Shown here: one piece after another, positions 36,201 through 38,952 of the stretch
How the letters are laid out: each line of letters opens with the position of its first letter
How positions within the stretch are numbered: the first letter of the stretch is position 1
Made by a program: the position numbers and the translations under genes
Origin: an uncultured Mycobacteriaceae bacterium
Lineage (GTDB): Bacteria; Actinomycetota; Actinomycetes; Mycobacteriales; Mycobacteriaceae
DNA length: 64,000 nucleotides
Direction of reading: 5' to 3'
Assembly (NCBI GenBank): GCA_902826815.1
Contig: CADEGF010000002.1
Span: 62,001-126,000, forward strand
Notes under the pieces: model-generated
The model's database searches: none
What the model saw: the letters and a program-made list of their open reading frames with translations, nothing else
What the model was told of the DNA's origin: nothing

Positions 36201-37024
36201 CGGCAGCCGCCGCCAGGTCGGTACAGGCGGGCGGCGGCATCCGCAGCGCCCCGACACTGCTGAACCTGCTGCAACAGGCCACCGCGATCGCCGACCGCAC
36301 CGAGTTGATCAACCCCGTCGACGAGCCCGAATCACCCGTGAAACCTGCTGGAGTCCGCGGTCCCACCGCCGACGAATCGGGGGCCGGGGGCCGCAGGCGT
36401 AAGGGGCTGATCATCGGTCTCAGCGTCGCCGCCGCCGTCATCGTCGTCGCCTTGGTCGTGTTGGCGTCGGTACTGAAGGGCATCTTCGGCGACGTCGGTG
36501 GATTCTCACAGGACGAGCTCGGCCTCAATGCGCCGACCACCTCCGCGGAGGGCGGCGGGTCATCCGGGTCCGGTGCGACGGTCAAACCCACCAAGGCAAC
36601 GGTGTTCTCACCGGAGGGCGAGGCCGACGCACCCGATGAGGCCTCGTTGGCGATTGACGGCAACGCGTCGACCGTGTGGCCCATCGACACGTACAGCGAC
36701 CCCGTGCCGTTCCCCAACTTCAAGAACGGCGTCGGGCTGATGCTGCAGCTGCCCCAGCCCACCGCCATCGGTGAGGTCACCATCGACCTCAACAGCACCG
36801 GCACCTCAGTCGAGATCCGCTCGGCCCAGTCTCCGACACCGTCGTCGCTGGCCGATACCACCGTGCTGACACCCGCGACACCGCTGCGCCCCGGCTCCAA
36901 CACCATCAAGGTCGAGAACGCAGCGCCGACGTCCAATGTGTTGGTGTGGGTTTCGACGCTGGGTCAGGTGAGCGGCGAGAGCCGTTCGGACATCGCCGAG
37001 ATCACCCTGAAGGCGGCATCCTAG
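33215..37024 (+). CDS. murJ: Lipid II flippase MurJ with pseudokinase extension
   Basis: Flips lipid II across the membrane for peptidoglycan synthesis. The protein has 1269 residues, versus about 510 in most bacteria. A Pro-rich cytoplasmic N-terminus (about 1-75) leads into the 14-helix MurJ/MviN core (about 85-605; RITGFIRIVLLAAILGAALS). A linker, a pseudokinase domain (about 785-1000) without a normal catalytic loop, a membrane helix near 1063 and an external C-terminal domain follow. In mycobacteria the pseudokinase is phosphorylated by PknB and recruits FhaA. ATG 33215 overlaps the upstream stop (ATGA). Confidence 0.95.
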   Translation: MSTTGRPFGPAQPPFDRGGGPVGRPPMPPGGYRPPVPPPGMLPAGHLPPPPPQRRVPPAPPRQRIPRGPAPRRRAGRPELSDAAVVSRSWGMAVATLVSRITGFIRIVLLAAILGAALSSAFSVANQLPNLVAALVLEATFTAIFVPVLARAERDDPDGGTAFVRRLVTLATALLLVATVVSVAAAPLLVRLMLGSDPQVNESLTTAFAYLLLPQVIFYGLSSVFMAILNTRNVFGPPAWAPVINNVVAIATLVVYLIVPGELSIDPVEMGNAKLLVLGIGTTLGVFAQTAVLLVAIRRERVSLRPLWGLDDRLRRFGGMAAAMVLYVLISQVGLIVGNQIASEAAASGPAIYNYTWLVLMLPFGMIGVTVLTVVMPRLSRNAAANDTRAVLGDLSLATRLTMVTLIPIVAFMTVAGPAIGSALFAYGNFGDVDAGYLGMAITLSAFTLIPYALVLLQLRVFYAKEQPWTPIIVIVVITAVKIAASLAAPHLTDDRELIAGYLGLANGIGFLAGAVVGYILLRANLNPPGGRLISLEVVRTVLVATAASILAGLLAHVVDQLLGLESLTENHGGGGSMLRLSVLGLIMLPVIAAVMLAARVPDAQAALAAVRRRLGRTPKVAGSPVPPSVRPRPGAPLTYSDHRNSLASRGRHSPQAAWRGPPAPVAGAGMRKGPAVTDDSAGDSAPLPDNGATTKIPLPTAADDFEPDVPIDAPDDRDVAAAGEAEQGEKGTMPVSTVSPPASGRPPADYGGDPTREGLPFDIPREPAIETATSDEDVHLIPGASIGGGRYRLLVFHGGPPNLQFWQALDTALDRQVALTFVDPEAALSDEDLQEILDRTLRLSRIESPGIARILDVANTGSGGLVVSEWIRGGSLQEVAETSPSAIGGARAMQTLASAAEQAHRAGVAMSIDHPSRVRVSIEGDVALAFPATMPDATPEDDIRGIGAALYALLINRWPLSEAGVRSGLAPAEVDAAGEPVEPRSVDREIPFQISAAAARSVQAGGGIRSAPTLLNLLQQATAIADRTELINPVDEPESPVKPAGVRGPTADESGAGGRRRKGLIIGLSVAAAVIVVALVVLASVLKGIFGDVGGFSQDELGLNAPTTSAEGGGSSGSGATVKPTKATVFSPEGEADAPDEASLAIDGNASTVWPIDTYSDPVPFPNFKNGVGLMLQLPQPTAIGEVTIDLNSTGTSVEIRSAQSPTPSSLADTTVLTPATPLRPGSNTIKVENAAPTSNVLVWVSTLGQVSGESRSDIAEITLKAAS

Positions 37025-37059
37025 CCCGTTATCCCCAAGGGCAGTCGGCACGAACCGCG
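37013..37059 (+). repeat. 47-nt direct repeat, left copy (murJ 3' end)
   Basis: Covers the last two codons and stop of murJ and 35 nt beyond. It matches 38906-38952 at 44 of 47 positions in the same orientation. Together the copies bracket the TPP riboswitch and thiC. Confidence 0.92.
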
Positions 37060-37140
37060 AATCAGGAGTCGACCAAACCGGGGGCAGTTCCCCTGGCATT
37101 CCCGCCGTAGCGGCTCTGCGCTAGCGTGGTGAGTGCCAAC

Positions 37141-37228
37141 CACACGGGAGCGCACGCCGAGTGCGCTGAGAGGACGGGTAGGCCCGTCGACCGTACGAAC
37201 CTGACCGGGTAATGCCGGCGTAGGGAGA
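37141..37228 (+). ncRNA. TPP riboswitch (THI element)
   Basis: Conserved blocks are present in order: a CGGGAGC-type 5' segment, GCTGAGAGG, ACCGTACGAACCTGA and CCGGGTAATGCCGGCGTAGGGAG. The terminal GGGAG is 10 nt from the thiC GTG and probably serves as its Shine-Dalgarno sequence, so thiamine pyrophosphate binding would mask translation initiation. Confidence 0.93.
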
Positions 37229-37237
37229 TGACGAAAA

Positions 37238-38872
37238 GTGCTGCACTCTGACGTTTCCACCCCGACTCCTTCGGTGACGCGCGGCCCGATTGCGGGCAGC
37301 ACCAAGATCTACCGCGAGGTCGATGGGATGGATGTGCCGTTCCGCCGGGTGAACCTGACCAACGGCGATCACTTCGACCTGTACGACACCTCGGGCCCAT
37401 ACACCGACGCCGATGCGGTGCTCGACCTCCACAAGGGGCTGCCGCCGCTCCCCGGCGTGGTGCGAGATCGCGGCACCCAACTTCAACGCGCCCGCACCGG
37501 CGAGATCACGGCCCAGATGGCGTTCATCGCCGCGCGCGAGGGGGTGGCACCCGAACTGGTCCGCGACGAGGTGGCTCGCGGCCGGGCAGTCATTCCGGCG
37601 AACCACAACCACCCCGAGGCCGAGCCGACGATCATCGGCAAGGCGTTCGCGGTGAAAGTCAATGCCAACATCGGTAATTCGGCTGTCAGCAGCTCGATCG
37701 CCGATGAGGTCGACAAGATGGTCTGGGCCACCCGGTGGGGCGCCGATACGATCATGGACCTGTCCACCGGCCGCGATATCCATCTGACGCGGGAGTGGAT
37801 CCTGCGCAATTCGCCGGTGCCCGTCGGCACCGTCCCCATTTACCAGGCGCTTGAGAAGGTCGCGGGCGATCCGGCGGCGCTGACATGGGAGTGCTACCGC
37901 GACACCGTGATCGAGCAGTGCGAGCAGGGCGTGGACTACATGACCGTGCACGCAGGCGTGCTGCTGCGGTATGTGCCGCTGACCGCCAAACGAGTGACGG
38001 GGATCGTGAGCCGGGGTGGTTCCATCATGGCGGCGTGGTGTCTTGCGCACCATCAGGAGTCGTTCCTGTACACCCACTTCGCGGGGCTGTGCGAGATCCT
38101 TCAGCGCTACGACGTCACGTTCTCGCTCGGCGATGGTCTACGGCCGGGTTCGATCGCGGACGCCAACGACGCCGCCCAGTTCGCCGAACTGCGCACGCTC
38201 GGCGAGCTGACGAAGATCGCGAAATCACATGGCGTGCAGGTGATGATCGAGGGTCCGGGCCATGTTCCGATGCACAAGATCGTGGAGAACGTGCGCCTGG
38301 AAGAAGAGCTGTGCGACGAGGCTCCTTTCTACACGCTGGGTCCGCTGACCACCGACATCGCTCCGGCCTACGACCACATCACGTCAGCGATCGGCGCCGC
38401 GATGATCGCCCAGGCGGGTACCGCGATGCTGTGCTACGTCACGCCGAAGGAACACCTGGGGCTGCCCGATCGTAAGGATGTCAAGGACGGTGTGATCGCC
38501 TACAAGATCGCGGCCCATGCCGCTGACCTGGCCAAGGGGCACCCGCGCGCACAGCAACGGGATGACGCCCTGTCGCGTGCCCGGTTCGAGTTCCGGTGGC
38601 ACGACCAGTTCGCACTCTCGCTGGATCCGGACACCGCCCGCGAGTTCCACGACGAGACTCTTCCCGCTGAACCGGCGAAGTCCGCGCATTTCTGTTCGAT
38701 GTGTGGTCCGAAGTTCTGCTCCATGCGCATCACCCAGGATGTGCGCGACTACGCGGCCCAACACGGTTTGGAGACGGAAGAGGACATCGAAGCTGCGATG
38801 GCCCAGGGAATGGCCGACAAGTCCAAGGAGTTCACCGAACACGGCAACCGCATCTATCTTCCACTCGCATGA
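37238..38872 (+). CDS. thiC: Phosphomethylpyrimidine synthase ThiC
   Basis: Radical-SAM enzyme that converts aminoimidazole ribotide to the HMP-phosphate moiety of thiamine. The protein has 544 residues, the normal length. It has GRDIHLTREWILRNSPVPVG and VMIEGPGHVPMHKI, with a C-terminal iron-sulfur motif CSMCGPKFC (CxxCxxxxC). The GTG start at 37238 follows the TPP riboswitch directly. The gene splits the otherwise conserved murJ-sigM junction and is bracketed by 47-nt repeats, so its position here looks secondary. Confidence 0.96.
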   Translation: MLHSDVSTPTPSVTRGPIAGSTKIYREVDGMDVPFRRVNLTNGDHFDLYDTSGPYTDADAVLDLHKGLPPLPGVVRDRGTQLQRARTGEITAQMAFIAAREGVAPELVRDEVARGRAVIPANHNHPEAEPTIIGKAFAVKVNANIGNSAVSSSIADEVDKMVWATRWGADTIMDLSTGRDIHLTREWILRNSPVPVGTVPIYQALEKVAGDPAALTWECYRDTVIEQCEQGVDYMTVHAGVLLRYVPLTAKRVTGIVSRGGSIMAAWCLAHHQESFLYTHFAGLCEILQRYDVTFSLGDGLRPGSIADANDAAQFAELRTLGELTKIAKSHGVQVMIEGPGHVPMHKIVENVRLEEELCDEAPFYTLGPLTTDIAPAYDHITSAIGAAMIAQAGTAMLCYVTPKEHLGLPDRKDVKDGVIAYKIAAHAADLAKGHPRAQQRDDALSRARFEFRWHDQFALSLDPDTAREFHDETLPAEPAKSAHFCSMCGPKFCSMRITQDVRDYAAQHGLETEEDIEAAMAQGMADKSKEFTEHGNRIYLPLA

Positions 38873-38905
38873 CGTTCCCTCCGCTGGCACCACAGGCCAG
38901 ATGCC

Positions 38906-38952
38906 GCGGCGTCCTAGCCCGTTATCCCCAAGGCCCGTCGGCACGAACCGCG
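38906..38952 (+). repeat. 47-nt direct repeat, right copy (before sigM)
   Basis: Starts 33 nt after the thiC stop. It repeats the murJ end sequence, including a GCGGCGTCCTAG that would encode Ala-Ser-stop in the murJ frame, which reads as a remnant of murJ's 3' end. Three mismatches to the copy at 37013-37059. Confidence 0.92.

Follow-up and report, generated by a model that had tools for sequence, protein, structure and literature searches.

We describe a 64,000-nucleotide (nt) stretch of DNA from an uncultured Mycobacteriaceae bacterium (contig CADEGF010000002.1; this whole stretch is called the window), in which thiC and its thiamine pyrophosphate (TPP) riboswitch lie between murJ and sigM, bracketed by two direct repeats. 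The lineage appears to have lost thiC from its native locus and then to have regained it at an ectopic site from another Mycobacterium, a reading to which we give a probability of about 0.9. ThiC and ThiD act in thiamine biosynthesis, and TPP represses the pathway through the riboswitch. The parts of the insert and its neighbours are as follows.

33215..37024, plus strand: murJ, the upstream neighbour, open to its stop (Pfam MurJ, E 1.5e-113)
37013..37059, plus strand: left direct repeat, the end of murJ plus 35 nt, perhaps reaching ~37073
37074..38911, plus strand: foreign segment (5′ flank, riboswitch, thiC, 5′ end of thiD), by homology to mycobacterial native thiC loci and by the tree
37122..37127, plus strand: TAGCGT, likely −10 element of the thiC promoter, from alignment
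37134..37243, plus strand: TPP riboswitch aptamer (RF00059), 60.1 bits against a gathering score of 54.3
37238..38872, plus strand: thiC, phosphomethylpyrimidine synthase, 544 residues (PF01964, E 1.3e-187, residues 80-500, the radical S-adenosylmethionine core)
38869..38905, plus strand: probable thiD remnant (truncated 5′ end), whose ATG overlaps the thiC stop
38906..38952, plus strand: right direct repeat, merging into the spacer that relatives have between murJ and sigM
39017..39604, plus strand: sigM, an extracytoplasmic function sigma factor and the downstream neighbour (sigma-70 region 2 and 4 domains)

The repeats start 1893 nt apart and, as the preliminary description had claimed, agree at 44 of 47 positions. 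Allowing up to three mismatches, a pattern built to fit both copies gave two matches in the window and none in 100 dinucleotide shuffles. When the whole genome (6.87 Mb, 141 contigs) was searched for further copies with DNA that included the left one, the repeat was found at these two places only, which rules out a dispersed element. A 16-nt core of the repeat likewise occurs without mismatch only at these two sites in the genome, with one extra site at two mismatches; as a control, the reversed pattern gave two matches. The left copy comprises the final 12 nt of murJ and 35 nt more, and so prolongs murJ, and the right copy extends into the sigM-proximal spacer as that spacer is found in relatives. 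The insertion therefore duplicated its target, as had been proposed. Within the right copy, GCGGCGTCCTAG reads Ala-Ala-Ser-stop in the murJ frame; the Ala-Ser and stop noted earlier are there, preceded by a further Ala that had been missed. A longer left repeat, reaching ~37073, is only suggested: the score of 37056-37076 against the junction of one relative (G170) was equalled by 33 of 5000 shuffles, against that of another (G375) by 2053 of 5000, and against the right copy by 4065 of 5000.

SigM was sought in two sets of genomes of the genus, of 198 and 396, and the same junction was read in other genomes (G000 is the genome of the window). Among the matches listed, its closest relatives by SigM are G143, G372, G375 and G170. 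In all 36 other genomes read at the junction, these four included, murJ adjoins sigM with no thiC match, and the gap between the two genes is 55-197 nt in 33. Across 124 loci with a thiC match, many with flanks of just 1.5 kb, a MurJ or SigM match was found only in loci of the window genome. Elsewhere thiC and sigM share a contig in 44 of 118 genomes compared (those of the 198 with both genes among the matches listed), never closer than 434,160 bases, and lie on separate contigs in the other 74. In this sample the arrangement proposed for other mycobacteria, murJ followed by sigM with thiC elsewhere, holds, and the order murJ-thiC-sigM is not ancestral. The three remaining junctions, L040 (G069), L073 (G290) and L062 (G041), have gaps of 1013-1256 nt; with spacers of ~1-1.25 kb, the site seems permissive for other inserts.

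The DNA between the repeats resembles a fragment from a typical locus of major facilitator superfamily (MFS) gene, riboswitch, thiC and thiD, cut within thiD after ~12 codons and with its ends meeting the repeats. The order MFS gene, thiC, thiD is found in the 26 thiC-bearing loci of the MFS+ThiD tree built with the scar loci (below), which were picked for having both neighbours; in some genomes, such as G067 and G207, other DNA lies upstream of the riboswitch. At the left end, homology to the MFS-thiC intergenic region begins near 37074-37076, and the alignment with G370 agrees at 26 of its 27 positions, a score attained by 0 of 2000 shuffles. At the right end, the sequence 3′ of the thiC stop matches the start of thiD at 25 of 28 positions in G277 and 28 of 32 in G170, and for 4 of 18 native loci none of 2000 shuffles reaches the alignment score. 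The last 6 nt of the foreign segment, GCGGCG, can be assigned to either side of the right joint and are also present at the end of murJ. The preliminary description had spoken of a cassette moved together with its regulation. The insertion and the accompanying riboswitch stand; a dedicated mobile cassette does not, the insert looking like a fragment of an ordinary locus.

A Pfam search of seven further open reading frames (ORFs) of at least 90 residues overlapping the inter-repeat stretch returned no family match and no transposase or integrase profile, and among 25 inverted pairs listed of 31, none links both ends of the insert as terminal inverted repeats would. The segment does not qualify as an insertion sequence or transposon; of the features of an integrative element it has the repeats, with no integrase profile between them. 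An integrase-borne element at the 3′ end of murJ, with the repeats as attL and attR and with decay leaving only thiC, would explain a repeat of this length at the end of a gene, which is typical of attachment sites. We nonetheless consider it improbable, given that thiC fills the space between the repeats, that the seven other ORFs belong to no Pfam family, that at both ends a resemblance to thiC-locus sequence extends as far as the repeats or close to them, and that an exact 22-mer of the repeat has no match in viral_contigs. As for transport by phage, query coverage stayed below 80% in all phage records, eight of which match thiC at 60-80% identity. Plasmid records gave 370 matches to thiC-like DNA; a plasmid was rejected as the vehicle of the window copy, since just one of the 20 rows listed is a mycobacterial plasmid, and it is 81% identical.

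The native locus of the window genome survives without its thiC. Its MFS gene and thiD lie on contig C24, where the riboswitch runs directly into the start of thiD; the native thiC has been deleted, a point beyond the reach of the preliminary description. G143 and G372 carry the same scar, with the riboswitch before thiD in all three genomes, and the three form one clade in the MFS+ThiD tree (support 100/99; in the protein rows of this tree, of the MurJ+SigM tree and of the MFS+ThiD tree built with the scar loci, X stands for any stop). While the scar itself is observed, the trees suggest that thiC was lost in an ancestor common to all three. In G375, which retains the gene, thiC and thiD both begin with ATGAGC, and slippage from one start to the other might have produced the deletion.

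The window thiC is most similar in DNA to those of G213, G145, G124, G169 and G277 (87-89%), rather than to those of close relatives. A ThiC tree, which the preliminary description had suggested building, indicates a foreign origin for the gene, with which the riboswitch travelled. In this DNA tree of 66 rows (12 of 78 were left out, four of them divergent ThiC and eight named non-mycobacterial, and one Gordonia row was kept), the window thiC groups with G124, G145 and G213 (100/99). The MurJ+SigM tree of 34 rows instead joins the window to G372 (98/92), then to G143 (96/81), then to G170 and G375 (100/100), and places G124, G145 and G169 apart from it. An approximately unbiased test rejects the window thiC with G143, G170 and G375 (p 2.07e-62), with G170 and G375 (p 2.46e-5) and with G143 (p 2.59e-4). 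In this conflict with the tree of its neighbours, as in a site that is empty in every other genome read, the gene behaves as a xenologous gene. Had the genome's own thiC simply moved to the murJ-sigM junction, with no transfer from outside, the native locus would also miss exactly thiC and the insert would also end as a thiC-locus fragment should. Such a move may fit G143, where thiC follows pntB and grouping with G170 and G375 is not rejected (p 0.259). For the window it is very unlikely, since its thiC falls with the G124/G145/G213 group and the three tested groupings with relatives are rejected. An assembly chimera or contamination, conceivable in a draft of 141 contigs, is hardly credible for an insert that is embedded in a contig of 241 kb, is flanked by diverged repeats of spacer sequence belonging to the host, and supplies the genome with its single thiC.

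The loss of thiC and its recovery from another Mycobacterium would have proceeded as follows. In the ancestor shared with G143 and G372, a deletion at the native MFS/TPP riboswitch/thiC/thiD locus would have left thiD straight behind the riboswitch. The window lineage would later have taken up a ~1.84 kb fragment, beginning in the spacer between MFS gene and thiC and ending near codon 12 of thiD, from a donor placed by the tree, with support from the flanks, near the stem of the G124/G145/G213 clade. This fragment would have been joined into the murJ-sigM junction, and 47 bp or more of the target duplicated in the process. The duplication itself is observed; illegitimate recombination is the mechanism we somewhat favour. 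A plausible right joint is the short GCGGCG common to thiD and the end of murJ, which the donor would have carried as well. Duplication of the target left murJ intact and the sigM-proximal spacer in place. As the insert brings a likely −10 box (TAGCGT, identical in 6 of 9 aligned relatives) and the riboswitch, it should restore regulated synthesis of the pyrimidine hydroxymethylpyrimidine phosphate (HMP-P), with ThiD presumably supplied by the native locus. The gene is uninterrupted from start to stop, and besides the ThiC profile its product keeps the C-terminal CX2CX4C iron-sulphur motif of ThiC, as CSMCGPKFC; the aptamer, too, scores above the RF00059 gathering value. The strain is predicted to be a thiamine prototroph.

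Several points weigh against parts of this history. The exact donor was not found, the best DNA identity being 89%, and the window thiC keeps ~20 codons near its 3′ end that are missing from the five nearest thiC genes; its source is then at best a stem relative of the G124/G145/G213 group rather than a sampled member. A mosaic thiC with a foreign tail is unsupported, as the tail, where alignable, is 85-89% identical to the five G124-group genes. The bootstrap of the ThiC tree is not fully settled (0.987). Flank homologies are short: at the right end the remaining 14 of 18 native loci give weaker or chance-level scores, and at the left end 18 of 19 loci score below G370; many of these weaker flank comparisons are at chance. 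In the MFS+ThiD tree the scar clade joins G370 (94/83) and G170 and G375 fall elsewhere, unlike in the MurJ+SigM tree, a conflict which implies that exchange may have affected the native locus too. Lastly, the empty site of G372 could stem from excision through the repeats, and the timing of the uptake relative to G372 is not proven.

Such excision, by recombination between the repeats that would delete thiC, is plausible. Passages of PMC3519483 report for M. smegmatis that 38-bp direct repeats lead to precise loss of the intervening stretch at about 6e-6; the window repeats, in comparison, are 47 nt long and diverged at 3 of 47 positions. Loss of thiC has parallels in Rhodococcus equi and R. 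parequi, for which the portions consulted of PMC2947987 and PMC11893733 describe a thiCD locus without thiC and a requirement for thiamine. The native locus here is likewise an actinobacterial thiCD locus missing thiC; in those portions, however, a foreign region replaces the gene and no regain is mentioned, whereas the window genome has a clean deletion and a new thiC elsewhere. Short variable bacterial segments have been attributed to illegitimate recombination, most of them not known mobile elements and 10-18% flanked by direct repeats (PMC2884548, in part). The repeats of that survey, as excerpted, are mostly under 30 bp, and the window segment differs in carrying a lost biosynthetic gene with its riboswitch. 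Plasmid pMYCCH.01 of M. chubuense (Mycolicibacterium) NBB4 (NC_018022.1) also bears, in a mycobacterium, a thiC with no thiD annotated beside it in an incomplete gene table; this copy differs in its identity of 81%, in its surroundings of transposase genes and in its carrier, a plasmid classed as mobilizable. No title or abstract on thiC loss and regain in Mycobacterium was found among the matches listed from the open-licence literature. This locus is an unusually complete instance of processes already known, thiC loss and repeat-flanked illegitimate recombination, as the loss, the foreign origin, the approximate cut points and the target duplication are all legible from sequence in one case. 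It also shows the regain of a regulated single-gene unit without a mobile element of its own.

Native loci without thiC recur in the genus. At least 30 of 393 genomes of the genus have one: in 24 the match to the thiC-less locus starts at base 1 of the query and reaches its end (22 genomes) or stops no more than 14 bases short of it (two), and in six more it covers the riboswitch-thiD part; at the strict threshold used, scar genomes may be missed. The riboswitch ends at most 45 nt from thiD in 24 of 27 scar loci read, and the scars of G151, G334 and G034 seemingly retain a few thiC codons, so that deletion endpoints differ. An MFS+ThiD tree with 25 of the 30 scar genomes and the 26 thiC-bearing rows, all with both MFS and ThiD, implies seven changes of state whose direction is not fixed; return of thiC by recombination may be among them. 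These loci make the evolution of thiamine dependence in Mycobacterium testable.

A ThiC search of the 30 scar genomes and of G089, in which the native locus was not seen, gave matches in 6 of 31, all six being scar genomes: G000, G143, G335, G139 (two), G334 and G151, the last two just 66-69% identical. In G143 (L202), thiC follows pntB (PF02233) with no riboswitch above threshold. A pntB-like end also precedes divergent ThiC (62-68%) in L265 (G334), L266 (G151), L277 (G111) and L278 (G365), and the gene seems to have a second recurrent site behind pntAB (pntAB-thiC). G139 has lost its native thiC. Its 32.6-kb contig C4 (L299, L262, L300), which appears plasmid-like, carries a thiC, a Mutator-type transposase and a TrwC relaxase; the second thiC of G139 also adjoins a Mutator-type transposase. 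Two long thiC matches each occur in G104:C1 and G088:C12, the G088 pair having equal scores and possibly being an assembly duplicate. We tentatively entertain, as a possibility we would not bet on, that thiC in Mycobacterium goes through cycles of loss, having been deleted from the native locus in several lineages with riboswitch and thiD left behind, and of regain at new sites, where it arrives as a compact regulated unit, in part on plasmids; the window repeats would make it excisable again. If so, thiamine makers and non-makers could coexist in one population.

Two further features were seen in native loci and in ThiC itself. In L272 (G341), L274 (G080) and L275 (G038), ThiC ends shortly past the CX2CX4C region (ITQDLLT, then a stop) and lacks its usual tail. 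In many native loci (L196, L197, L203, L208) and in two scars, including G000:C24 near 78920-78945, the space from the MFS gene to the riboswitch holds an AT-rich stretch like ACATATATTAGCTATACAAA; absent from the window insert, this stretch upstream of the riboswitch may be an operator.
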